A stretch of 58,607 bases of DNA, from NCBI GenBank assembly GCA_023247445.1, contig JAHFGL010000006.1:1-58607 (forward strand). Reading direction: 5' to 3'. Below the pieces are notes generated by a model. The model was given only the letters and a program-made list of their open reading frames with translations. It did no database searches and was not told the DNA's origin. Every line of letters begins with the position of its first letter. Position 1 is the stretch's first letter. Below are positions 2,840 through 43,901 of this stretch, piece by piece. Source of the DNA: Candidatus Omnitrophota bacterium (GTDB lineage: Bacteria > Omnitrophota > Gorgyraeia > Zapsychrales > Zapsychraceae). Position numbers and translations under genes: made by a program.

Positions 2840-4576
2840 ATGGACTACAAAACAGATTTAGACAAATTGCGACACAGTGCTTCGCATGTGATGGCCCAGG
2901 CGGTGAAAGAACTGTGGCCAGAAACGAAAGTCACGATTGGCCCGGCGATTGACAACGGGTTTTATTATGATTTTGACAAGGCCGAACCGTTTTCTGACGA
3001 GGATTTAAAGAAAATTGAAAAGAAAATGTGGAACATTATTAATCGTAAATTATCGTTTAAGCAGTCGTTCATGTCTAAACAAGATGCGATTAAATTGTTT
3101 AAAGAAAAAAATGAAGATTACAAAATTGAATTGATTAACGGCATTCCGGATGCCGAGGTTTCCATTTTTAAAACTGGCGATGAGTGGTTAGATTTGTGTA
3201 AAGGTCCGCACGTTGATAACGCCGGGCAAATCAAAGCATTTAAATTGTTGACGGTTGCTGGATCATATTGGCGAGGCGATGAGACGAAGGCAAAGTTGCA
3301 ACGTATTTACGGCACCGCGTTTTTTTCTGAAAAAGAATTAGATGAATATTTAAAGAATTTAGAAGAGGCTGAAAAAAGAGATCATCGTAAGTTAGGCGTT
3401 GCGCTTGATCTTTTTAATTTTTATCACGAGGCTGCCGGGGCCGGACTTGTTTTTTATCATCCAGCTGGTGCGATGCTGCGTAAGATCATTGAAGATTACG
3501 TGCGCGAGCAACACATCAAACGCGGTTATGACTTGGTCATGACGCCACACATGTTAAAAGGAAAGCTTTGGGAAGAAAGTGGCCACGCGGAAAATTATCG
3601 TGAGAATATGTATTTTTTCAAAGTCGATCAAGAAGAATTTGCCGTTAAACCGATGAATTGTCCGGGGCACATTTTGATTTATCGATCAAAGACTCGATCG
3701 TACCGCGATTTGCCGATCCGTTTTTTTGAATTAGGCACTGTTTACCGTCAAGAAAAGGCTGGTGTTTTGCATGGACTGCTTCGTGTGCGCGGGTTTACTC
3801 AAGATGATGCGCACATCTTTTGTCGCAAAGATCAGATTAAGGCGGAAGTCATGGACGTCATTGATTTTGTTTTTGATGTGATGAAAGATTTTGGGTTTAA
3901 AGATATTGATATTGAATTAAGCACGCGCCCGGAAAAATTTATTGGAACGATCGAAAATTGGAACACAGCGACCAATGCGCTAGAAGATGCACTTAAAGAA
4001 AAGAAGATGGCGTATCAAATTAACGAAGGCGACGGCGCATTTTATGGACCCAAAATAGATTTTAAATTAAAAGACGCAATCAATCGTCAATGGCAATGCG
4101 CGACGATTCAGTGTGATTTTTCTTTGCCGGAACGATTTAAAATAAACTACGTTAACGACGAGGGCGGTGAGAGTCGACCGATCATGATTCATCGCGCGAT
4201 TTTGGGAAGCGTGGAACGCTTTATTGGGACATTGATTGAGCATTACGGTGGCGCGTTTCCGGTGTGGTTGGCACCGGTGCAGGTTGTTTTGGTTCCTATT
4301 CGAGAGGAACAAGTGGCGTACGCAGGTCAAATAAAAGAAGATTTACAAAAAGCGGGTGTTCGGGTTATAATTGACGCGCGCAACGAGAGTTTAAACAAGC
4401 GTATTCGGGAAAACACGGTTAAGAAGATTCCTTATCTGTTAATCCTCGGTGACAAAGAGGTTCAAGAGAAAAAAGTTTCCGTACGAAAGTATGGTACCGG
4501 AGATCAGGGAGCTATTTTAGTAGAAAATTTTATTCAAAACATTCAAAACGAAATAACAACGAAGCAAATAAGTTAA
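2840..4576 (+). CDS. thrS: Threonyl-tRNA synthetase lacking the TGS domain
   Basis: Charges tRNA-Thr. The protein begins directly at the editing domain (HSASH, residues about 12-16). It has the second editing motif CKGPHV, the class II motif 2 region YRQEKAGVLHGLLRVRG, and zinc ligands in MNCPGH, DDAHIF and MIHRAI, followed by a complete anticodon-binding domain. It has 578 residues; the usual 640-residue form has an extra N-terminal TGS domain that is absent here. ATG 2840 is chosen because the only longer frame reads through tRNA-Val. The next in-frame ATG would remove part of the editing site. No ribosome-binding site fits in the 5-base gap after the tRNA. Confidence 0.94.
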   Translation: MDYKTDLDKLRHSASHVMAQAVKELWPETKVTIGPAIDNGFYYDFDKAEPFSDEDLKKIEKKMWNIINRKLSFKQSFMSKQDAIKLFKEKNEDYKIELINGIPDAEVSIFKTGDEWLDLCKGPHVDNAGQIKAFKLLTVAGSYWRGDETKAKLQRIYGTAFFSEKELDEYLKNLEEAEKRDHRKLGVALDLFNFYHEAAGAGLVFYHPAGAMLRKIIEDYVREQHIKRGYDLVMTPHMLKGKLWEESGHAENYRENMYFFKVDQEEFAVKPMNCPGHILIYRSKTRSYRDLPIRFFELGTVYRQEKAGVLHGLLRVRGFTQDDAHIFCRKDQIKAEVMDVIDFVFDVMKDFGFKDIDIELSTRPEKFIGTIENWNTATNALEDALKEKKMAYQINEGDGAFYGPKIDFKLKDAINRQWQCATIQCDFSLPERFKINYVNDEGGESRPIMIHRAILGSVERFIGTLIEHYGGAFPVWLAPVQVVLVPIREEQVAYAGQIKEDLQKAGVRVIIDARNESLNKRIRENTVKKIPYLLILGDKEVQEKKVSVRKYGTGDQGAILVENFIQNIQNEITTKQIS

Positions 4577-29164: not shown

Positions 29165-29252
29165 CTTCTTCGGTAGCTGGCTAGCCCTTAACTTCATTGT
29201 AAGGCCCCTTTAGTTTTGCGTCCCCGGGTTACCCCGGGTTTGCCTTTATCGT
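29165..29252 (-). promoter_or_regulatory. Cyclic-di-GMP-I (GEMM-I) riboswitch
   Basis: Read on the minus strand: AAAGGCAAACC, a GNRA-capped stem (cccggg-GTAA-cccggg), GGGACGCAAAACTAAAGGGGCC, and at the 3' end GCTAGCCAGCTACCGAAG. This is the conserved order of the class, including the GGACGCAAA joining region. It lies about 120 bases before the metalloprotease start. Downstream of it, aaataagatg and catcttattt can form a long-range stem that may be the expression platform. Confidence 0.9.
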
Positions 29253-29489
29253 TTTTTACTCTACTGGAAGTGTAAAACATAATTGTTATTAAAACAAGGG
29301 CTAGGGAAATATATATTCTTGATTTATGGTTGGTCTAGTAGGTTTTTTAAATAAATCCTACCGAAGCTTGAGGTAGGAGTGATACAATGTTGCAGACTTA
29401 AATGCTTTCATGGCAACGGTTATGAACTCTCAATTACAACAGAAAAAATCATATTTTAGTAATAATAAGATAAACAATTTTATTTAATA
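29253..29489. other. Intergenic region before dsbD-like gene
   Basis: The minus strand side holds a plausible promoter for the riboswitch (TTGTTT, 17 bases, TACACT). On the + strand tcctacc (29356-29362) and ggtagga (29372-29378) form a hairpin, with gtagg upstream (about 29338) as an alternative partner. No gene was recognised. Confidence 0.4.
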
Positions 29490-33749: not shown

Positions 33750-34883
33750 ATGAAAATCCACGAATATCAAGCCACGGAAATATTCAAGAAAGCTGGAATC
33801 CCAGTTATTAGCGGACGGGTTGCGACCGAAGTTTATGACGCTGCCTTGATTGCTGATGAAATTGGTTATCCAGTTGTCCTCAAATCTCAAGTTCTTGTCG
33901 GGGGCCGCGGTAAGGCGGGCGGGATCAAGGTTGTTAAAGACAAACATGAACTTGAAAAAACTTTCCAAGAATTAAAAAAACTTAAGATTAAAGGTTATCC
34001 AGTTGAAAAAATCTTGGTGGTTAAGGCCATCGACATCAAAAAAGAAATTTATATTGGGATTACCATTGATAGTGCCAAAGACGATGTGGTTCTCATTGCC
34101 AGTGCGGCTGGTGGTGTTGAGATTGAAGAGACGGCGAAGACAAATCCCGATGCGATTAAGAAGTTTTATCTCCAAGGTGAAAAAGAAATTGATCATCACC
34201 GTTGGCCGGTTTTTATCCGTTCCATTTTTGAAGATCCTGCCCAGAAAGAAGCTGCCACTAAAATCTTTCAGAATCTTGTTAAGGTTTTTTTTGAATACGA
34301 TTGTTCTATCGCGGAAATTAATCCTTTAGTTATTGATGGCAAGGGCCAGATTTTGGCGGCGGATGCTAAAATCAATTTTGATGAAAATGCGTTTTTCCGT
34401 CATGAAGAGTTAGTTAAACTACGTGATTTAAGATATGAGAATCCTGATGAGTTAGAAGCCAAAGAAAAAGGATTAAGCTTTGTCAAACTAGACGGCAACG
34501 TTGGTTGTATTGTTAATGGCGCGGGACTGGCCATGGCGACGATGGATATTGTGAAGTTAACCGGTGGCAGCCCTGACAATTTCTTAGATGTTGGAGGAAG
34601 CTCAAATCCAGAAAAAGTTTTAAATGCGTTAAAGATCATTTTGCGCAATAAAAACATTAAAGCTATTTTGATTAATATTTTTGGTGGAATCACCCGTTGT
34701 GATGATATTGCCAAAGGAATTTTAGAAGCTAAGAAACAAATCACGATGACGGTTCCTTTGGTTGTGCGATTAACAGGAACTAATGAAAAAGAAGCCAAAG
34801 AGCTCTTAGCAAAAAATGGCTTAAGCACGTATTCAACGATGCGCGAAGCGGTTGATAAGGTTGTGGAGTTAACGAAATCATGA
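33750..34883 (+). CDS. sucC: Succinyl-CoA synthetase beta subunit
   Basis: 377 residues with an N-terminal ATP-grasp ([30 protein letters not shown]) and the C-terminal CoA-ligase-type domain ([35 protein letters not shown]). Joins succinate and CoA with ATP or GTP, or runs in reverse. It overlaps sucD by 4 bases. No clear ribosome-binding site. Confidence 0.95.
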
Positions 34884-35749
34884 GCATTTTATTAGATCAA
34901 AATTCTAAAGTTATTGTTCAGGGCATTACCGGCCGCGATGGATCATTCCATGCCGAGAAAATGGTGGAGTATGGAACCAAGGTTGTTGGGGGTGTGACGC
35001 CAGGCAAGGGTGGACAGCAAGTCGTCGGTATTCCGGTATTTAATAACGTCGCGGAAGCTAAAGAAAAAACAGCCGCTAATGTTGCAGTTATTTATGTTCC
35101 GGCCAAATTTGCCAAAGATGCCATGCTTGAAGATATTCGTGCAGGAATTGAGTTAATCATCTGTATTACGGAAGGCGTACCAGTTTTAGATATGGTTGAA
35201 GTTCGCAAGGCGATGGTGGGGAAAAATATTCGTTTGATTGGTCCTAATTGTCCGGGGGCTATTTCTCCAGGAAAATGCAAGGTTGGAATTATGCCAGGGC
35301 ATATTCATAAACAAGGCCCGATTGGTGTTGTCTCTCGCAGCGGGACGCTTACCTATGAAGTTGTTTATAATTTAACATTAAGTGATATTGGTCAATCGAG
35401 TTGTGTTGGTTTAGGTGGAGATCCAATTATTGGGACGCGATTTGTGGATGTTCTGGATATGTTTATGCGTGATAATGAAACCAAAGGAATTGTCATGGTT
35501 GGTGAAATTGGCGGGGCTGATGAACAAATCGCCGCTGATTATATTAAGAAAAATGCCACGAAGCCTATCGTTGGCTTTATTGCTGGCCGAACGGCTCCTG
35601 CCGGAAAACGCATGGGTCATGCGGGCGCGATCATCTCTTCAGGTGATTCTACCGCCGAGGCCAAGCGTGAAATTCTTAAACAGGCTGGCGTCACCGTTGT
35701 TGATTTCCCCGATGAAATTCCCGCTGTTTTTAAGAATAAATTAAAATAA
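34880..35749 (+). CDS. sucD: Succinyl-CoA synthetase alpha subunit
   Basis: 289 residues. CoA-binding Rossmann part ([20 protein letters not shown]), then [20 protein letters not shown], and the phosphorylated active-site His in RMGHAGAI (about 247). Coupled to sucC by overlap. Other TCA genes are not in the window. Confidence 0.96.
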
Positions 35750-35818
35750 CCTCTAAATTTTTTCAAAAGATACTATAATAGTCTCATCTTTAAGGACTTT
35801 TTTTGTCCAAGGCTTATT

Positions 35819-36922
35819 ATGACCAAGAAAAAAGTAAAAAATATTTTTCTGTCTTCAATTCATCAAGATGCAGGCAAAACCACCATTTCGCTTGGTTTGT
35901 ATACTGTTTTTAAGGAACGAAAATTAAAAACAGCTTTTATGAAACCGGTTGGTCAACAGTTTGTCAGCGTTGGTGATTTAAATATTGATAAAGATTCATA
36001 TTTGATTGGGGAAGTCTTTCGCTGTAATAAAAGATTTAAGGAAATGAGTCCGATCACAATTGGCCGCGGGTATACCGAAAAATATATTTTTAATCCCCAC
36101 AAGGATAAATTAAAAGAATCGATTGAAACATCATTTAAAACTCTGATTAAGGGAAAAGATGCGATTATCGTCGAAGGAACTGGCCATGCGGGCGTGGGGT
36201 CGGTTATTGATTTTTCTAATGCGGACGTTGCTCAGCTATTGGGATCGAAAGTTATTATTGTTAGCGAAGGCGGTATTGGCAAAAGCATTGATGAAATTAT
36301 GTTGAATAAGGCGCTTTTTGATTTAAAGAACGTCGAGATTTTGGGCGTTATTGTTAATAAAGTTTTGCCAGAGAAGTATGAAAAGATTAAAACGATATTA
36401 GGGAAAGGTTTAGAAAATAAAGGTCTACGTTTGTTGGGAGTTATTCCGCTTGATCCGCTATTAAGTTCTCCAACGATGCAAGAAATTAAAATTAGACTTG
36501 GGCTTGAGCTTCTGTGTGGTGATCTTGACACCTCACGTCGGGTTGCGCATACTATTGTGGCTGCGATGGAGCCGCACAACATGATTCATTATTTAAAGAA
36601 GAACACACTCGTTTTAACTTCTGGCGATCGGGTTGATAATATTTTGGTTGCGGTCAGTTCGCATTTAGTTAGCGGAGGAGAGGGCAATCAGGTGGCGGGG
36701 ATTATTTTAACGGGAGGGTTGATGCCGAATCCGAAAATTATCGATCTTCTTAAGAAAAGTAAAATTCCTGTTCTATTGACGGAAAATGATACGTACACGG
36801 TGGCTGGCAAAATAGAGCATCTTATTTGTAAAATCCAGAAAACAGATAAAGATAAAATTCAAGAAGCAAAACATCTTGTGAAGCAATATGTGGATGTGAA
36901 TGCAATTCTAGAAAATGCTTAG
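35819..36922 (+). CDS. BioD-like P-loop protein with DRTGG domain
   Basis: 367 residues. N-terminal dethiobiotin-synthetase-like (AAA_26) domain with P-loop HQDAGKTT (15-22) and VEGTGHAGVGSVIDFSNADVA. The C-terminal domain (about 225-335) has SGDRVDNILVA and AGIILTGGLMPNPKIIDLLK, the DRTGG pattern. This is the same architecture as the N-terminal regulatory part of long phosphotransacetylases, but without the catalytic Pta domain. Function unknown; position between sucD and a thiolase hints at acyl-CoA metabolism. A TATAAT (35774-35779) lies upstream. Confidence 0.8.
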   Translation: MTKKKVKNIFLSSIHQDAGKTTISLGLYTVFKERKLKTAFMKPVGQQFVSVGDLNIDKDSYLIGEVFRCNKRFKEMSPITIGRGYTEKYIFNPHKDKLKESIETSFKTLIKGKDAIIVEGTGHAGVGSVIDFSNADVAQLLGSKVIIVSEGGIGKSIDEIMLNKALFDLKNVEILGVIVNKVLPEKYEKIKTILGKGLENKGLRLLGVIPLDPLLSSPTMQEIKIRLGLELLCGDLDTSRRVAHTIVAAMEPHNMIHYLKKNTLVLTSGDRVDNILVAVSSHLVSGGEGNQVAGIILTGGLMPNPKIIDLLKKSKIPVLLTENDTYTVAGKIEHLICKIQKTDKDKIQEAKHLVKQYVDVNAILENA

Positions 36923-37002
36923 ACAGCTTTCAGTTTTCAGCTATCAGCTTTCAGTAGCTGATAGCTGCTGATAGCTGGTAACTGACAGCTGAAAGCTGAA
37001 AC
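36923..37002. repeat. Palindromic repeat, family R2, copy 1
   Basis: Built from iterations of agctttcag / ctgaaagct and ctatcag / ctgatag. The left end cagctttcag pairs with ctgaaagctg at the right end. It runs up to 4 bases before the thiolase ATG. Second copy at 51584-51662. Confidence 0.85.
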
Positions 37003-37005
37003 AAT

Positions 37006-38193
37006 ATGTTTCCCAATATCCTGTCTAATTCAGTTTACATCATCGATGGGGCACGAACCCCAATCGGCAGTGCTAACAAAAGTTTAAAAAGTTTTTCCGC
37101 CGCTGCGCTCGCTTCGCTGGTTATTAAAGAGCTTATCCGACGAAATAAGGTTAATAAATATTTGATCAATCAAGTTGTTTTAGGCAACGCCGTTTCTGCT
37201 GGTCTGGGACAGAATTTTGCGCGACAAGCATCTCTTTTGGCAGATCTTGATGAATCAATCCCGGCATTTTCGGTAAATAATGTTTGTGGTTCGGGATTGC
37301 AATCGATTATTTTAGGAGCACAGGCGATTTTAGCTCAAGAGGCTGATTTGGTTATTGCGGGAGCTTCGGAAAGTGCCACAAAAAATCCATTTTTATTGGA
37401 TCGTGATGATGTTGAAAACGAAAAGTTTAAGAACCACCAAGATAGCTTAACTCACGATGGTCTTTATTGTCAGATTTCCAAAAAGAGCATGGGGGAGTTG
37501 GTGGAAGATTTGGCAAAAAAATATAATATTTCTCGAGATGAACAAGATCAATATGCTTTAGAAAGTCATCGCAAGGCTTGTTTGGCACAGCAACAAAATA
37601 AATTTTCGAATGAAATTGTTTCTATTAAAGTTTCTAATCAAAAGACATTAGATAAGGATGATCGTCCTCGTCAGAATATCAGGATAGATTCCTTCCGTGA
37701 TTTACCTTCAGCCTTCAAAGATAATGGGACGGTAACCGCAGGCAACAGTTCTGCGCCAAGCGATGGCGCGGCGGCGGTTGTTCTGGCATCAAAAAGATTT
37801 CTTAACGAACATAAATTAAAAGCCAAAGCACGCATTGTGGGATACGTCTCGATCGGTGTTAAACCTGAGCAGACTTTTGAGGCCGCTATTGGTGCGATTG
37901 AAGCATGCCTTCATAAATGTCATTTAACATCTAAAGATATCGATTTGTTTGAAGTTGGCGAATCTTTTGCCGCTCAAGCTGTTTTAACTAAAATCAAGCT
38001 TGGGCTTGCTGATAAAAAGTTTAATGCTTTTGGTGGCGATCTTGCCTTGGGGCATCCTTTGGGCGGTGCCGGCACCCGAATTTTAGTTACGCTTCTTCAT
38101 GCGCTTTCTGATCAAAAACTACGCCGAGGTTTAGCTTGTGTTTGTTATGGCGGTGGTGGAGCTATCGCTATTATTATAGAAAGAACAGGATAA
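37006..38193 (+). CDS. Thiolase (acetyl-CoA acetyltransferase family)
   Basis: 395 residues. Nucleophile Cys94 in NNVCGSGLQS, catalytic His in ALGHPLGGAGTR (about 348) and second Cys in CVCYGGGG (about 377). The NEAF motif of the oxyanion hole reads GESFA here (about 317), an uncommon change. The usual reaction is condensation or cleavage of acetoacetyl-CoA. With the altered motif the exact substrate is uncertain. Confidence 0.9.
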   Translation: MFPNILSNSVYIIDGARTPIGSANKSLKSFSAAALASLVIKELIRRNKVNKYLINQVVLGNAVSAGLGQNFARQASLLADLDESIPAFSVNNVCGSGLQSIILGAQAILAQEADLVIAGASESATKNPFLLDRDDVENEKFKNHQDSLTHDGLYCQISKKSMGELVEDLAKKYNISRDEQDQYALESHRKACLAQQQNKFSNEIVSIKVSNQKTLDKDDRPRQNIRIDSFRDLPSAFKDNGTVTAGNSSAPSDGAAAVVLASKRFLNEHKLKAKARIVGYVSIGVKPEQTFEAAIGAIEACLHKCHLTSKDIDLFEVGESFAAQAVLTKIKLGLADKKFNAFGGDLALGHPLGGAGTRILVTLLHALSDQKLRRGLACVCYGGGGAIAIIIERTG

Positions 38194-38195
38194 TT

Positions 38196-39425
38196 ATGTC
38201 ACCAACCAAAAGTAAGAAATTAAATATTACTCAAATTCAAGAATTAACGATCCTGCGAAGTATCGTTGAGATTACAAATTCTGAGTTGGATTTAAATTGG
38301 ACGCTTCATGAAGTAGTCAAGGTTGTGACTGACATGACCAAAGCGGATTCCGTTTTTGTTTATCTCTTTGATGAAAAGAAAGAGCATTTGGTGCTCATGG
38401 CTTCTAAAACGCCGCATAAACATGAGTTAGGAAAAGTCACCCTTAAAGTTGGTGAAGGGATCACAGGTTGGGTTGCTCAGGAAAATAAGCCAGTGGCCAT
38501 TGCTCAAAATGCATACAAAGATAAGCGTTTTAAGGGGTTTGATGTTCTTCCTGAAGATCGTTATGAGGCTTTTCTTTCGGTGCCCATTCTTCATAAGAAT
38601 CGTGCCATTGGCGTTATTAATGTTCAACACAAAAAGCCGCATGAGTATGCTGCCGCGACGACAAATTTGATATCTATTATTGCTAAACAAATGGGTGGCG
38701 TTATTGATAATGCCCGGCTTTTTGATGAAGCCAAGAAAAAAGCTCTTCAGTTGGACAGTCTTGTTAAGGTTAGCAATTCAATTACTTCGCAAGATTATTT
38801 AGATGAAATTTTAAGTTTGATTGTTGTTGTTACGGCCGAAATGCTTAACTCGAAGGTTTGTTCGATTATGTTATTAGATGAAAAAGGTCATGAGTTGGTC
38901 ATGAAAGCGGCGCAAGGCTTAAGTGAAGAATATAAGAGAAAGCCTAATGTTAAGGTGGAGACAAGTTTAACCGGACAGGTGGTCAAAACCAAACAGCCGA
39001 TGATTATTAATGATGTTAAAAAGGAAGAACGGTTTGTCTATCAAGATCTTGCCACCAAAGATAATTTAACTTCTCTTTTGGCGGTTCCGATGGTTGTTAA
39101 AGAAAAGGCCATTGGTGTTGTTAGTGTGTATACAAAAATTCCGCATCATTTTTCTCAAGAAGAGATTGATGTTTTACAATTGGTTGCTAATCAGGCAGCG
39201 GTTGCGGTTGAAAATACAAAACTTGTAGAAGAGGCTTTGAGAGCCAAGGAAGCTTTAGAGACAAGAAAAGTGGTTGAGCGTGCCAAAGGCATTTTGATGC
39301 AGATGAATAATTTAGCGGAAGAAGCCGCTTACCGATTAATTCATAAGAAGAGTATGGACTCTTGCCGATCGATGAAAGAGATTGCTGAGTCGATTATATT
39401 GATGGATGAGATACGGAAAAAATAA
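38196..39425 (+). CDS. GAF-GAF-ANTAR RNA-binding antitermination regulator
   Basis: 409 residues from ATG 38196, 2 bases after the thiolase stop. GAF domain 1 at about 30-165 (VGEGITGWVAQENKPVAI; LSVPILHKNRAIGVI) and GAF domain 2 at about 195-340 (TSLTGQVVKTKQPMIIND; LLAVPMVVKEKAIGVV). The C-terminal ANTAR domain is at about 351-404: VVERAKGILMQ, AEEAAYRLI, MDSCRSMKEIAESI. ANTAR domains bind paired hairpins with six-base loops and prevent terminator formation. Such hairpins occur in the amt and glnA leaders directly downstream. The GAF domains probably sense a small molecule; the ligand is unknown. Confidence 0.93.
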   Translation: MSPTKSKKLNITQIQELTILRSIVEITNSELDLNWTLHEVVKVVTDMTKADSVFVYLFDEKKEHLVLMASKTPHKHELGKVTLKVGEGITGWVAQENKPVAIAQNAYKDKRFKGFDVLPEDRYEAFLSVPILHKNRAIGVINVQHKKPHEYAAATTNLISIIAKQMGGVIDNARLFDEAKKKALQLDSLVKVSNSITSQDYLDEILSLIVVVTAEMLNSKVCSIMLLDEKGHELVMKAAQGLSEEYKRKPNVKVETSLTGQVVKTKQPMIINDVKKEERFVYQDLATKDNLTSLLAVPMVVKEKAIGVVSVYTKIPHHFSQEEIDVLQLVANQAAVAVENTKLVEEALRAKEALETRKVVERAKGILMQMNNLAEEAAYRLIHKKSMDSCRSMKEIAESIILMDEIRKK

Positions 39426-39490
39426 ATTTTTTAGCACCTAGCGTCTTAGGTAGTATTTTTTAATAAGCTACAGAGATAATGAAAAAAGAT

Positions 39491-39519
39491 TTGACAAGTT
39501 AATTAATTAATTGTATATT
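39491..39519 (+). promoter_or_regulatory. Sigma-70-type promoter of amt-glnK
   Basis: TTGACA (39491-39496), 17-base spacer, TATATT (39514-39519). The predicted start (about 39526) coincides with the first base of ANTAR-type hairpin P1. Confidence 0.8.
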
Positions 39520-39525
39520 CTGACC

Positions 39526-39630
39526 ATCAAGCCAACGAAGGTTTGATGAAAATTTAAAAAGGGCACAGAAGTCCGACGATACTGGTGAAATGTAGAGTCG
39601 GACATTTTTATTTTAAGGGCAATGAGGTCC
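39526..39630 (+). promoter_or_regulatory. ANTAR-type antitermination leader of amt
   Basis: P1: atcaagcc (39526-39533), loop AACGAA, ggtttgat (39540-39547). P2: gggc (39561-39564), loop ACAGAA, gtcc (39571-39574). P3: gggc (39617-39620), loop AATGAG, gtcc (39627-39630). All three loops have six bases with A1 and G4, as in known ANTAR targets. The right arm of P2 is the base of terminator T1 and the right arm of P3 is the base of terminator T2, so hairpin and terminator exclude each other. Confidence 0.85.
39571..39614 (+). terminator. Leader terminator T1 of amt
   Basis: gtccgac (39571-39577) pairs with gtcggac (39597-39603), followed by ATTTTTATTTT. Shares its left arm with hairpin P2. Confidence 0.8.
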
Positions 39631-39670
39631 CGAATTAATCTAAGGAAACTTAGTCGATTCGGGATTTTTT
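39628..39670 (+). terminator. Leader terminator T2 of amt
   Basis: tcccgaat (39628-39635) pairs with attcggga (39657-39664), with an inner ctaag-gaaa-cttag stem, followed by six T. Shares its left arm with hairpin P3. Confidence 0.88.
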
Positions 39671-39673
39671 ACA

Positions 39674-39724
39674 GTGTAGGAAAGGACAAGCCTTTCCTAA
39701 CTGCTGAAAATTCCTTTCCTACAC
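39674..39724. repeat. Palindromic repeat between leader and amt
   Basis: Perfect 13-base arms gtgtaggaaagga (39674-39686) and tcctttcctacac (39712-39724). An internal cctttcct can pair with the left arm as an alternative. It lies after the T2 T-run and about 130 bases before amt. Confidence 0.75.
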
Positions 39725-39857
39725 AGCAAAGAAGATATGACGAACGAAGTGAGGAATTTTCTTGTTTGATGGGCAAGGAAGTTTTTGCCTAATATGACCC
39801 AAGAAGGTCTTTATATATAGGGAAATCAATAAGAACAAGAAAGAGGAGGAATCAATA

Positions 39858-41093
39858 ATGGACATGATTAATGCAGGCGATACAGCATGGGTCCTTGCCT
39901 CATCGGCACTGGTCATGCTTATGACTCCTGGCCTCGCCTTTTTTTACGGAGGCATGGTCAGACGCAAGAACATTTTAGGAGTCTTAATGCAATGTTTTAC
40001 AGTTTTGGGTGTCATTAGTCTTCAGTGGGTTCTATTTGGATACAGTCTTTCTTTTGGTCCAGGCAATGCTTTTATTGGAGGATTAAGCTGGGCTGGGTTA
40101 AATGGAGTAGGTTTTGAGCCTAATACAGATTATGCCGGGACTATTCCTCATCAAGCTTTTATGATCTTTCAGGCAATGTTTGCCATCATTACTCCTGCTT
40201 TAATTATTGGAGCTTTTGCTGAAAGAATGAAATTTTCTGCATTTTTGGTTTTCACTGTTCTTTGGGCAACCTTAGTTTATGATCCTATTTGCCATATGGT
40301 TTGGGCTGTTGGCGGATATGCACGTGGCTTTGGAACCTTGGATTTCGCCGGTGGAACAGTTGTTCACATTAATGCTGGTATTGCTGGTTTGGCGGTTGCT
40401 TTGGCGATCGGAAAAAGAAAAGGGTATGAAAATAAATCTTTTCCAATCCATAATCTTCCTCTTACGGTTTTAGGGGCTGGTTTATTGTGGTTTGGATGGT
40501 TTGGATTTAATGCTGGAAGTGCTTTAGCTGCTAATGGTTTAGCCGCTAGTGCTTTTGTCGTAACGAATACCGCCGCCGCTGCTGCAGGTTTAAGCTGGGC
40601 GCTTATAGAGTGGAAGGTTAATGGTAAGCCAACTATCTTGGGAACTGTTTCCGGAGCTGTCGCTGGGCTAGTTGCTGTTACACCAGCCGCCGGTTTTGTC
40701 ACTGTTATGGGTTCTATCTATATTGGTTTATTAGTTAGTGTATTCTGCTTTATTGCAGTCAGTTTCTTAAAACCAAAATTAGGATATGATGATTCCTTAG
40801 ATGCCTTTGGTGTTCATTGCGTTGGTGGAATTTGGGGCGCTCTTGCAACAGGTTTATTTGCGACCAAGACTGTAAATTCTGCTGGTGCTGATGGATTGTT
40901 TTATGGTAATCCAGCCCAACTTTTGATTCAGACAAAAGCTGTTCTGCTTACGGTTGTTTATAGTTTTGTGGTCACTTTTGTTCTTTGTAAAGTGATTGAT
41001 ATGGTAATGGGCCTAAGAGTAGATGAAGCTGATGAAGTTGAAGGGCTTGACGTCAGTCAACATCATGAACGAGCTTATACTGTTTTAGATTAA
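39858..41093 (+). CDS. amt: Ammonium transporter
   Basis: 411 residues, eleven-helix Amt channel. The pore twin histidines are His170 (GGTVVHINAG) and His320 (FGVHCVGG). The start has TPGLAFFYGGMVRRKN, the Amt signature. No separate signal peptide is visible. GAGGAGG precedes ATG 39858. Followed after 18 bases by the PII gene, as is usual for amtB-glnK pairs. Confidence 0.96.
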   Translation: MDMINAGDTAWVLASSALVMLMTPGLAFFYGGMVRRKNILGVLMQCFTVLGVISLQWVLFGYSLSFGPGNAFIGGLSWAGLNGVGFEPNTDYAGTIPHQAFMIFQAMFAIITPALIIGAFAERMKFSAFLVFTVLWATLVYDPICHMVWAVGGYARGFGTLDFAGGTVVHINAGIAGLAVALAIGKRKGYENKSFPIHNLPLTVLGAGLLWFGWFGFNAGSALAANGLAASAFVVTNTAAAAAGLSWALIEWKVNGKPTILGTVSGAVAGLVAVTPAAGFVTVMGSIYIGLLVSVFCFIAVSFLKPKLGYDDSLDAFGVHCVGGIWGALATGLFATKTVNSAGADGLFYGNPAQLLIQTKAVLLTVVYSFVVTFVLCKVIDMVMGLRVDEADEVEGLDVSQHHERAYTVLD

Positions 41094-41111: not shown

Positions 41112-41453
41112 ATGAAGCTTATTATTGCTATAATTCAACCGCATAGGCTTGAAGATGTTAAAAAAGCTCTTTATGCGGCTGATGTTAATTTAATTACCGT
41201 CAGTGAAGTGTTGGGTCATGGACGTGAAAAGAGCGTCGATGAATTTTACCGTGGATCGAAAGAATCCGGTAACTTGCTTAGAAAAATCCGTTTAGAGATT
41301 GCTGTTAATGACAACTTTGTTGAGCCAACCGTGAAGGCTATTGTTCGCGGTGGTAAGACAGGAAAAGTTGGCGATGGCAAAATTTTTGTCATGAGTTTGG
41401 AGCGATGTGTTCGTATCCGAACAGGTGAAGAAGGCCACGACGCGATTGGGTAA
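41112..41453 (+). CDS. glnK: PII nitrogen regulatory protein without the Tyr51 site
   Basis: 113 residues. Binds ATP/ADP and 2-oxoglutarate and normally plugs AmtB. The ends KLIIAIIQPHRLEDVKKAL and GKIFVMSLERCVRIRTGE are canonical. In the T-loop, Tyr46 is kept (EFYRG) but the residue at position 51, uridylylated in proteobacteria, is Glu (YRGSKE). The loop length is unchanged. So GlnD-type modification is not expected. Strong AGAGGAGG ribosome-binding site. Confidence 0.94.
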   Translation: MKLIIAIIQPHRLEDVKKALYAADVNLITVSEVLGHGREKSVDEFYRGSKESGNLLRKIRLEIAVNDNFVEPTVKAIVRGGKTGKVGDGKIFVMSLERCVRIRTGEEGHDAIG

Positions 41454-41454
41454 A

Positions 41455-41532
41455 GTTATCCTGAGCGAAGCGAAGGATCTCAAAGCTCTTAAGTATTTTG
41501 AGATCCTTCGTCGCTTTGCTCCTCAGGATGAC
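41455..41532. repeat. Palindromic intergenic repeat, family R1, copy 2
   Basis: Same family as 12757-12837: left arm with atcctgag and gaaggatctcaaa, right arm with tgagatccttcg and ctcaggatgact. Lies between glnK and the glnA promoter and could end the amt-glnK transcript. Confidence 0.85.
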
Positions 41533-41546
41533 TCAGTATAAAAATC

Positions 41547-41575
41547 TTGACAAAATTTTTAGCTATTAGTATACT
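41547..41575 (+). promoter_or_regulatory. Sigma-70-type promoter of glnA
   Basis: TTGACA (41547-41552), 17-base spacer, TATACT (41570-41575). Predicted start near 41582. Confidence 0.8.
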
Positions 41576-41600
41576 CAGCCATATTTTTACCAGGGCTATA

Positions 41601-41667
41601 GGGGCGAAGAAGTCCCAAAAATTTTATGTATCATTCCCTTCAATATCGACAGGGGCATTGATGTCCC
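41601..41667 (+). promoter_or_regulatory. ANTAR-type antitermination leader of glnA
   Basis: First hairpin ggggc (41601-41605), loop GAAGAA, gtccc (41612-41616): six-base loop with G4, but G at position 1. Second hairpin ggggc (41652-41656), loop ATTGAT, gtccc (41663-41667): A1 and G4 present. The right arm of the second hairpin is the base of the terminator that follows. The stems are nearly the same as those of the amt leader (gggc/gtcc). Confidence 0.82.
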
Positions 41668-41707
41668 GAAATTCCTTAAACTGTTTAAGGTGATTTCGGG
41701 ATTTTTT
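41664..41707 (+). terminator. Leader terminator of glnA
   Basis: tcccgaaat (41664-41672) pairs with atttcggga (41693-41701), with inner ccttaaa/tttaagg, then six T. It lies 40 bases before the glnA start and shares its left arm with the second ANTAR-type hairpin. Confidence 0.9.
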
Positions 41708-41744
41708 GTTTTAGACGGAAAATTCAACATAAGGAGAACATGCT

Positions 41745-43901
41745 ATGGGTACAACATCAAGAATCAAAGAAATCCAGACAGCCGAAGATCTGTCAATTAA
41801 GGGGGAAGAGATGGGGACAGCGTCGTTAGGGGCACAAATACCAAATTATTATGGAAAGAATGTTTTCGGTTTAAAAACAATGCGCAGTTATCTTTCAGAA
41901 AAAGCTTATAATTCTTTAAGCGCAACGATTAATAACGCCGGAAAGTTAGACCCAAGCATTGCCGATGAAGTTGCTGAAGCGATGAAAACATGGGCCGTTT
42001 CCAAAGGCGCCACACATTTTACACATTGGTTCCAACCATTAACTAGCACAACCGCTGAAAAACACGAAGCCTTTATTGAACCTGATGGTCAAGGCAGTGT
42101 TATTTTGAAATTTTCTGGAAAAGAATTAATCCAAGGGGAACCAGATGCCTCTAGTTTTCCTTCTGGTGGGTTAAGAGCAACATTTGAAGCGCGTGGATAT
42201 ACAGCATGGGATCCAACAAGCCCAGCTTTTATTAAGGAAGGTCCAGAAGGCGCTACTCTTTGTATTCCGACGGTATTTTGTGGTTATCATGGTGAAGCGT
42301 TAGATAAAAAGACGCCGTTACTTCGTTCGATGGCGGCCTTATCTAAACAAGCTTGCCGTTTGGGAGCCCTATTTGGCATCGATGTTAGAGGTAAAAGAGC
42401 CTTTGCTACACTTGGTGGTGAACAAGAATATTTCTTAATTGATAAAAAATTCTATTTGGAACGACTTGATCTTATCCAAACTGGCCGTACGCTTTTTGGT
42501 TCTAAACCAGCCAAGCATCAACAAATGGAAGATCATTATTTTGGCGCGATCAAAGGTCGCATCATGGCGTTTATGGAGGATTTTGATCGAGAATTATGGA
42601 AATTGGGAATTCCTGGACGAACACGACATAATGAAGTAGCTCCAGCTCAATTTGAAATTGCCCCAATCTTTGAAGAGTTAAATTTAGCGGTTGATCATAA
42701 TATGATCACCATGGAAGTTATGCGTCAGACAGCAGAAAAACATGGACTTGTTTGTTTGCTTCATGAAAAACCATTTGCGGGTGTTAATGGTTCTGGTAAA
42801 CATAATAATTGGGCGATTGTTGGACCCGACGGGAAAAATTGGTTATATCCTGGGAAAAATCCACATGACAACGCAAAATTCTTAGCGGTGTTGTGCGCCA
42901 TTATCAAAGCGGTTGATACGTATGCAGGCGTTTTACGTTCTTCAGTTGCGTATGCTGGAAACGATCATCGTTTAGGGGCTAATGAAGCGCCACCAGCGAT
43001 TATCTCCATTTTTCTTGGCGATCAGTTAACTGATATTATTGAACAAATTGAAAAAGGCGGAGCAAAAAATTCTAAATCCGGCGGAGTTATTGAGATCGGC
43101 GTTGATTCTCTACCAACGCTGCCTCGTGATGCCACCGATCGTAACAGAACTTCTCCATTTGCCTTTACCGGAGCTAAGTTTGAATTTCGCGCGGCTGGAT
43201 CAAACATGACGTTATCTTGGCCAAATGCGGTGTTAAACACAATCGTCGCTGAAGCCCTTGATGAGATGTGTACACAGCTTGAAGCTGATGTAAAAGCCAA
43301 AAAAGATTTTAACCAATCTTTACAAAAACTTTTACAAGAAACAATTAAGAAGCACAAGAAGGTTCTTTTTAACGGCGACAATTATACCGCCGAATGGCAT
43401 GCCGAAGCGAAGAAACGTGGTTTGCCAAATATGAAAAATACACCAGAAGCTTTGGCGGTTTTAAAAGATGAAAAAACGCTTAAGCTCTTTGAAAAACATA
43501 GTGTGCTTTCTCGTAAAGAGTTGCTTTCTCGTTACGAAGTTTATATGCATACCTACAACACCATCGTCGCGCTCGAAGGCAATTGCGCCTTAACGATTGC
43601 TAAGACGATGATTATCCCAGCTTGCGTTGCTTATCAAAATGAATTAGCTGTGATGATTAAAAATGTAGGTACTGCTGGAAAGACAACATCAATGAAGAAA
43701 CTTTTAAAAGAAGTGAGCACATTAACTGACGGCGCATTAGCTGTTTGTGATCAGTTGGAATCAGCCGTGTCCGCTCATAAATCCGATAAGACGCTCGCCG
43801 CGATGGCTAGCTTAAGAGAGAAAATTGATACGTTAGAAGGCCTAGCACCGAAAGATAGTTGGCCGTTACCTTCTTACGCTGAAATGTTGTTTGTTTATTA
43901 A
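41745..43901 (+). CDS. glnA: Glutamine synthetase type III
   Basis: 718 residues, typical of the large GSIII (GlnN) type and much longer than GSI (about 470). Motifs: IPNYYGKNVFGLKTMRSYL near the start, THFTHWFQPLTSTTAEKHE, GGEQEYFLID, and VNGSGKHNNWAI for ATP/glutamate binding. Makes glutamine from glutamate, ammonia and ATP. GSIII lacks the adenylylation control of GSI-beta. GGAGA ribosome-binding site upstream. Confidence 0.95.
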   Translation: MGTTSRIKEIQTAEDLSIKGEEMGTASLGAQIPNYYGKNVFGLKTMRSYLSEKAYNSLSATINNAGKLDPSIADEVAEAMKTWAVSKGATHFTHWFQPLTSTTAEKHEAFIEPDGQGSVILKFSGKELIQGEPDASSFPSGGLRATFEARGYTAWDPTSPAFIKEGPEGATLCIPTVFCGYHGEALDKKTPLLRSMAALSKQACRLGALFGIDVRGKRAFATLGGEQEYFLIDKKFYLERLDLIQTGRTLFGSKPAKHQQMEDHYFGAIKGRIMAFMEDFDRELWKLGIPGRTRHNEVAPAQFEIAPIFEELNLAVDHNMITMEVMRQTAEKHGLVCLLHEKPFAGVNGSGKHNNWAIVGPDGKNWLYPGKNPHDNAKFLAVLCAIIKAVDTYAGVLRSSVAYAGNDHRLGANEAPPAIISIFLGDQLTDIIEQIEKGGAKNSKSGGVIEIGVDSLPTLPRDATDRNRTSPFAFTGAKFEFRAAGSNMTLSWPNAVLNTIVAEALDEMCTQLEADVKAKKDFNQSLQKLLQETIKKHKKVLFNGDNYTAEWHAEAKKRGLPNMKNTPEALAVLKDEKTLKLFEKHSVLSRKELLSRYEVYMHTYNTIVALEGNCALTIAKTMIIPACVAYQNELAVMIKNVGTAGKTTSMKKLLKEVSTLTDGALAVCDQLESAVSAHKSDKTLAAMASLREKIDTLEGLAPKDSWPLPSYAEMLFVY

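Follow-up and report, generated by a model that had tools for sequence, protein, structure and literature searches.

ANTAR regulators of nitrogen-source genes share an output domain and differ in their sensors. NasR senses through a nitrate-binding NIT domain, and AmiR is controlled by AmiC. The eut system of Enterococcus faecalis offers the mechanistic reference, in which EutV holds dual hexaloops and the 3' arm of the second hairpin, P2, is thereby kept from the terminator (PMC3369931, PMC8934654). Its P1-P2 linker follows a rule of 5-12 nt, and 14 nt already slashes induction by EutV (PMC3369931). Whether one dimer uses the two hexaloops simultaneously or successively is an open question, and a successive-binding model has been proposed (PMC8934654). 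For other bacteria, Ramesh et al. 2012 (PMC3369931) predict that genes for Amt, P-II, glutamine synthetase, and nitrite reductase are preceded by ANTAR targets. Their study lists at least 13 ANTAR sites in six transcription units of D. acetoxidans and flags GAF-ANTAR architectures as uncharacterised (PMC3369931). The locus analyzed here lies in a stretch of 58,607 nucleotides (the window) from an Omnitrophota metagenome-assembled genome of 2.29 Mb. At a probability of roughly 0.87, its GAF-GAF-ANTAR protein would be a master nitrogen regulator with a phylum-wide regulon, acting by transcription antitermination through inferred RNA binding and inferred sensing.

The gene for this 409-aa protein (38196..39425, + strand) yields a product with Pfam matches to GAF_2 (3.2e-41) and ANTAR (4.3e-20), which bears out the sequence-only reading that placed a GAF-GAF-ANTAR protein before amt. 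The C-terminal ANTAR domain scores 71.7 bits against PF03861, above the cut-off of 27.3, and is the single match to that family across the genome, making this the sole ANTAR gene. Orthologues share 51-75% identity. An AlphaFold2 model (pLDDT 82) displays a single long helix, residues 321-371, running from GAF2 to the ANTAR helices. The gene starts 2 nt after the end of a thiolase-like gene and closes a run (33750-38193) that comprises two succinyl-CoA synthetase-like subunit genes, a gene at 35819, and the thiolase-like gene; this order is largely kept in relatives. Downstream on the same strand follow amt, encoding an ammonium transporter (39858..41093; Pfam 8e-132, TIGR00836), a P-II protein gene 18 nt 3' of it (41112..41453; Pfam 3.3e-25), and a type III glutamine synthetase gene, GSIII (41745..43901; Pfam GSIII_N 6.2e-78). 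Elsewhere in the window, the opposite strand carries a c-di-GMP-I-GGC riboswitch aptamer (29168-29253; RF03167, 63.3 bits, above the gathering score).

The amt leader opens with a sigma-70 promoter, TTGACA-17-TATATT (39491..39519, +), which matches the consensus at 11 of 12 positions and has a predicted start at ~39526, within hairpin P1; near-consensus promoters stand at comparable positions in other leaders. P1 (39525..39548, +), recognized in the sequence and by an inverted-repeat search, consists of nine pairs, CATCAAGCC-AACGAA-GGTTTGATG. P2, GGGC-ACAGAA-GTCC (39561..39574, +; covariance model 36.5 bits), follows 12 nt past P1, and its 3' arm opens the 5' arm of terminator T1 (39571..39609, +; scanner, -14.3 kcal/mol, inverted repeat), with a stem at 39571-39603 and a U tract at 39604-39609. 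P3, GGGC-AATGAG-GTCC (39617..39630, +), is the top-scoring element of the genome (covariance model, 41.5 bits) and likewise shares its 3' arm with the 5' arm of terminator T2 (39627..39670, +; scanner, -18.3 kcal/mol; stem 39627-39665, U tract 39665-39670). T1 and T2 thus begin with the GTCC arms of P2 and P3 as their 5' bases, and the loops of P1, P2, and P3 all carry A1 and G4. The sequence-only reading had described the promoter with its start on P1, the three loops, and both arm overlaps, and each is present as described. Beside the strong T1 and T2, P2 and P3 are of low stability (-3.4 and -3.3 kcal/mol), so this leader folds for termination by default; something must therefore keep P2 and P3 closed. 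A simple terminator scan misses both T1 and T2, probably owing to its loop and stem limits. Rfam returned no match to the leader at gathering score, and relaxing the search to E 10 added nothing but chance matches to unrelated families. Between T2 and the amt start codon, overlapping inverted repeats with common arms span 39665-39761 (39665-39686 with 39712-39733 or 39691-39714; 39706-39715 with 39752-39761), so alternative structures are possible there. The amt 5' UTR also holds degenerate hexaloop-like hairpins at 39777-39815, GGGC-AAGGAA-GTTT and GACC-CAAGAA-GGTC, perhaps decayed elements.

The same element occurs in a second leader of the window, that of GSIII (41547-41708), which is absent from the sequence-only reading. 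Its sigma-70 promoter, TTGACA-17-TATACT (41547..41575, +; promoter match), precedes a first hexaloop hairpin read from the sequence, GGGGC-GAAGAA-GTCCC (41601..41616, +), whose loop has G rather than A at position 1. A second hairpin, GGGGC-ATTGAT-GTCCC (41652..41667, +; scanner and covariance model, 38.2 bits), shares an arm with the 5' arm of the terminator (41662..41708, +; scanner, -20.6 kcal/mol, inverted repeat). A long near-perfect inverted repeat, REP-like or a terminator, lies at 41463-41521, 3' of the P-II gene and ahead of the GSIII promoter. The scanner called for a hexaloop with a purine at position 1 and G at position 4 (R1/G4), a stem of at least 4 pairs, and a terminator beginning in the 3' arm. 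At a score of at least 18, it found three sites when both strands of the window were scanned; the amt leader holds two of them and the GSIII leader one. Forty Markov surrogates of the window gave a mean of 0.025 sites and never two, and 2000 surrogates of the amt and GSIII leaders gave none. The observed leader elements are far more frequent than chance predicts.

From 41 elements of the window and its relatives, a covariance model spanning P2 and the terminator was built and run over the whole genome, a search already suggested by the sequence-only reading. Only five strong matches emerged (E <= 3.9e-4, followed by a gap to 0.035), all at nitrogen genes: two at amt (P2/T1 and P3/T2), one at GSIII, and two on contig 12, at nirBD. 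An extra contig 12 element (4495-4538 of locus L063) surfaces when less sequence is searched. The genes behind the contig 12 elements are nirB (TIGR02374) and nirD (TIGR02378), and one element precedes a gene for a small LuxR-type HTH protein, itself upstream of nirB. The P-II gene of the window (41112..41453) lacks a separate element. A single ANTAR protein and a single RNA motif are hence common to ammonium uptake, P-II, glutamine synthesis, and nitrite reduction. The proposed control of ammonium uptake is supported by the amt elements and was too narrow in scope, as GSIII and nirBD carry elements as well. Three single, coding-like pattern matches (C19, C37, C56) were set aside as chance, and a fourth match (C64) is weak in the covariance search of the genome (E 0.25).

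The association extends across the order and the phylum. Among 55 genomes of the order, our own included, elements are present in 45 of 46 with an ANTAR gene and in 5 of 9 without a detected one (Fisher 0.0017). In the phylum set of 193 genomes, 141 of them with ANTAR, a covariance model trained on the order recovers elements in 46/141 ANTAR-bearing genomes against 5/52 others (p 0.0009). Several distant families have the element within ~350 nt downstream of the ANTAR gene, as judged from coordinates, and the open frame of that gene is shorter there, about 235-320 aa. An ANTAR protein is present in G038, which has no element at threshold, and a distant TA06 relative (51% identity) has no recognisable element. 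The order-wide catalogue comprises 169 elements in 107 leaders, and the adjacent genes are amt (47), GSIII (31), nirB (12), P-II (2), and ANTAR (2), with carA, an NMT1-type transporter gene, and others as rarer neighbors. Across the order, both the G4 hexaloop and the sharing of stem and terminator sequence persist in amt, GSIII, and nirB leaders, and ANTAR genes accompany the elements, so the lack of conservation that would speak against ANTAR control is not seen. The terminator helix covaries, with 63 two-sided cells against 18 in shuffled data (41-sequence alignment); the P2 stems of this alignment hardly vary and offer no informative covariation.

Some of the 47 amt leaders have an outer-membrane protein gene between leader and amt. 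Directly behind six stacked leaders of relatives stands such a gene, one of which encodes a Pfam Gcw_chp protein (L114); the other five look alike by eye, and mostly an amt-like gene follows ~1 kb on. Two elements precede carA, for the small subunit of carbamoyl-phosphate synthase, identified by Pfam in L128 and by sequence similarity in L148. These putative carA elements link the regulon to arginine and pyrimidine nitrogen. Two further elements (L074, L086) precede a second ANTAR gene, which suggests ANTAR autoregulation.

Five genomes with elements and no detected ANTAR gene bear on whether some other factor gates the hexaloops, be it a second RNA-binding protein or a metabolite acting in a riboswitch-like manner, with the ANTAR gene a mere neighbor. 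G002 is 95% complete and has six nitrogen-type elements without a detected ANTAR gene; G012, G029, and G031, with the same combination, are less complete. The fifth, G003, counts the other way, as its ANTAR gene is only cut by a contig end. The protein itself gives a mixed picture. Its ANTAR domain aligns to EutV (6WSH/6WW6), NasR, and Rv1626, and of the EutV RNA-contact positions Lys143, Tyr164, and Met172 are kept, whereas others are changed (Arg168 to His, Asn173 to Asp, Arg175 to Cys; the PDB chain numbering is apparently shifted by 2). Yet ANTAR proteins are known to recognize G4 hexaloops of this kind, ANTAR genes and elements tend to occur in the same genomes, and G036, at 98% completeness, lacks both. 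No Rfam family matches the leader, and a riboswitch was rejected. We regard gating by another factor as decidedly unlikely and retain the ANTAR protein as the probable regulator.

Loop conservation requires some care, because G4 in all 169 P2 loops follows by construction from a model trained on R1/G4 sites. Non-circular tests make use of features outside the covariance model. Upstream P1 hairpins (at least 5 pairs, between start site and P2) have an R1/G4 hexaloop in 27 of 31 cases, compared with 79 of 458 in a coding DNA control (p 1e-15). Six-base loops at the terminator apex of the elements follow the rule in 22/42, where about 1/8 is expected (p 5e-10); unrelated terminators of the same loci, from which duplicates of catalogue elements were taken out by hand, do so in 1/13 (p 0.004). 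The opposite strand of the same leaders has no R1/G4 loops. A1, proposed as conserved, is found in amt P1-P3 and gives way to a purine across leaders. These tests also weigh on a plainer account, in which T1 and T2 serve the ANTAR gene as ordinary terminators placed back to back and their hexaloops are a coincidence. Such terminator pairs do occur, T1 and T2 lie just 3' of the ANTAR gene, and in relatives, too, the first element is often directly behind it. However, a near-consensus promoter stands between the ANTAR gene and T1, the same elements recur at GSIII and nirB, away from that gene, and surrogates of the leaders yield no such elements. Coincidence would also leave R1/G4 in P1 hairpins, which are outside any terminator, without an explanation. 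We therefore consider ordinary terminators of the ANTAR gene very improbable and rejected them together with chance hairpins, in favor of antitermination targets.

Two serial terminators in one leader had appeared unusual, and the catalogue corrects this impression: 48 of 107 leaders carry 2-4 serial elements. In 19 of 62 successive element pairs, no more than about 16 nt separate the starts of the previous U tract and the next P2. The mean number of elements per leader is 1.85 for amt and 1.26 for GSIII (p 0.0008, relatedness not corrected). Stacking may multiply termination and so shut off uptake more tightly than the synthetase, which is the more essential function. Across leaders, 20 of 50 linkers measure 5-14 nt. 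Judged by sequence, T1 with its 12-nt P1-P2 linker fits the canonical EutV rule, and the P2-P3 linker (42 nt) and that of the GSIII hairpin pair (35 nt) appear to exceed the length that EutV tolerates. With this 42-nt distance, T2 would not simply reproduce the layout known from E. faecalis. Either the ANTAR protein tolerates longer linkers or the hexaloops would be bound one by one, as in the successive-binding model.

Leader layouts fall into two groups by a bimodal distance between predicted start and first P2 (<=15 nt in 28 leaders, >15 nt in 75). An upstream P1 is present in 54 of the 75 long-distance leaders under a looser hairpin rule and in none of the short ones, where there is no room between start and P2. 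An R1/G4 hexaloop as terminator apex is found in 14/28 short leaders versus 9/75 long ones (p 1e-4). The distance from P2 loop to apex loop peaks at 13-15 nt, approximately the spacing expected of a P1-P2 pair joined by a 5-12 nt linker. These patterns tentatively suggest, at slightly less than even odds, a mirrored form of the dual-hexaloop motif. In it, P2 would sit at the 5' end of the transcript and the terminator apex would supply the second hexaloop, with gates stacked to 2-4 per gene across a phylum-wide nitrogen regulon. Protein on P2 and the terminator apex would leave the terminator as a harmless upper hairpin, away from the U tract. The amt leader of the window has the upstream-P1 layout.

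Given the observed leader anatomy, conservation, regulon, and co-occurrence with ANTAR genes, we infer RNA binding, its direction, the nitrogen signal, and the tighter shut-off by stacking as follows. Under ample nitrogen, the protein would stay off the RNA and polymerase would stop at the leader terminators of amt, GSIII, and nirBD. Under scarce nitrogen, a dimer, held together by the long helix that follows GAF2, would bind each six-base loop on its emergence; with P2 kept closed, the terminator stem would lose its first four bases and read-through would result. For amt, T1 would be opened by P1 and P2, which lie 12 nt from each other and would act as the canonical pair, and T2 would be gated by P3. 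Full-length amt RNA would then need two successive antitermination events, a stacking that would cut leakage. The protein could conversely bind the leaders and yet act in the opposite sense or at another step, such as translation or RNA stability, with the terminators as constitutive attenuators; many actinobacterial ANTAR targets overlap the ribosome-binding site instead of a terminator (PMC8164766). Essentially every element nonetheless has a hairpin arm in common with a terminator, and most lie well upstream of the start codon, which renders this alternative exceedingly improbable next to antitermination. As for the signal, the best solved match of GAF1 is the PtsP GAF domain (2.4e-25). The PtsP (EINtr) GAF domain binds glutamine in Sinorhizobium and responds to glutamine in Caulobacter (PMC4848567). 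Because of this similarity, glutamine is a first guess for the GAF1 signal, with RNA bound when glutamine is low.

We found no report of an ANTAR regulon in Omnitrophota in the openly accessible literature. Our findings would give this largely uncultured group a concrete, testable nitrogen control system based on RNA antitermination, and they provide 169 natural ANTAR targets in which loops, linkers, and the overlap with the terminator all vary. How a dimer uses its two hexaloops is directly addressed by the serial gates and by the class with apex hexaloops, because they break the single P1-P2 spacing rule. Compared with EutV and eut of E. faecalis, the present system shares the ANTAR output, two A1/G4 hexaloops, a P2 3' arm within an intrinsic terminator, and a 12-nt linker at T1. 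EutV, however, is a phosphorylated REC-ANTAR response regulator rather than a GAF-GAF-ANTAR protein, and the eut terminators are distributed over four intergenic regions, whereas two to four lie within one leader here. Unlike in eut, the P3/T2 and GSIII pair have longer linkers, G is allowed at loop position 1, and many leaders place a second hexaloop in the terminator apex. NasR at nasF in Klebsiella oxytoca and AmiR at amiE in Pseudomonas similarly combine ANTAR antitermination, dual hexaloops, and nitrogen-source genes, but each serves one locus through other sensor domains, and the literature consulted reports no serial terminators for them. The relation of PtsP (EINtr) to our protein is confined to the domain level, that of its GAF domain to GAF1. 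The predicted nitrogen regulons of Desulfotomaculum and Pelobacter are close in content, with ANTAR targets and terminators before the same kinds of nitrogen genes (PMC3369931, in the part available). ANTAR control of amt genes, put forward here by the sequence-only reading, had been predicted for these other bacteria in that 2012 study. Those regulons belong to other phyla, and the part available includes no Omnitrophota and describes neither shared leaders nor apex hexaloops (PMC3369931). The kind of antitermination is therefore known, and what looks new against the literature consulted is the phylum-wide regulon, the stacking within single leaders, the acceptance of either purine as first loop base, and the class with apex hexaloops.
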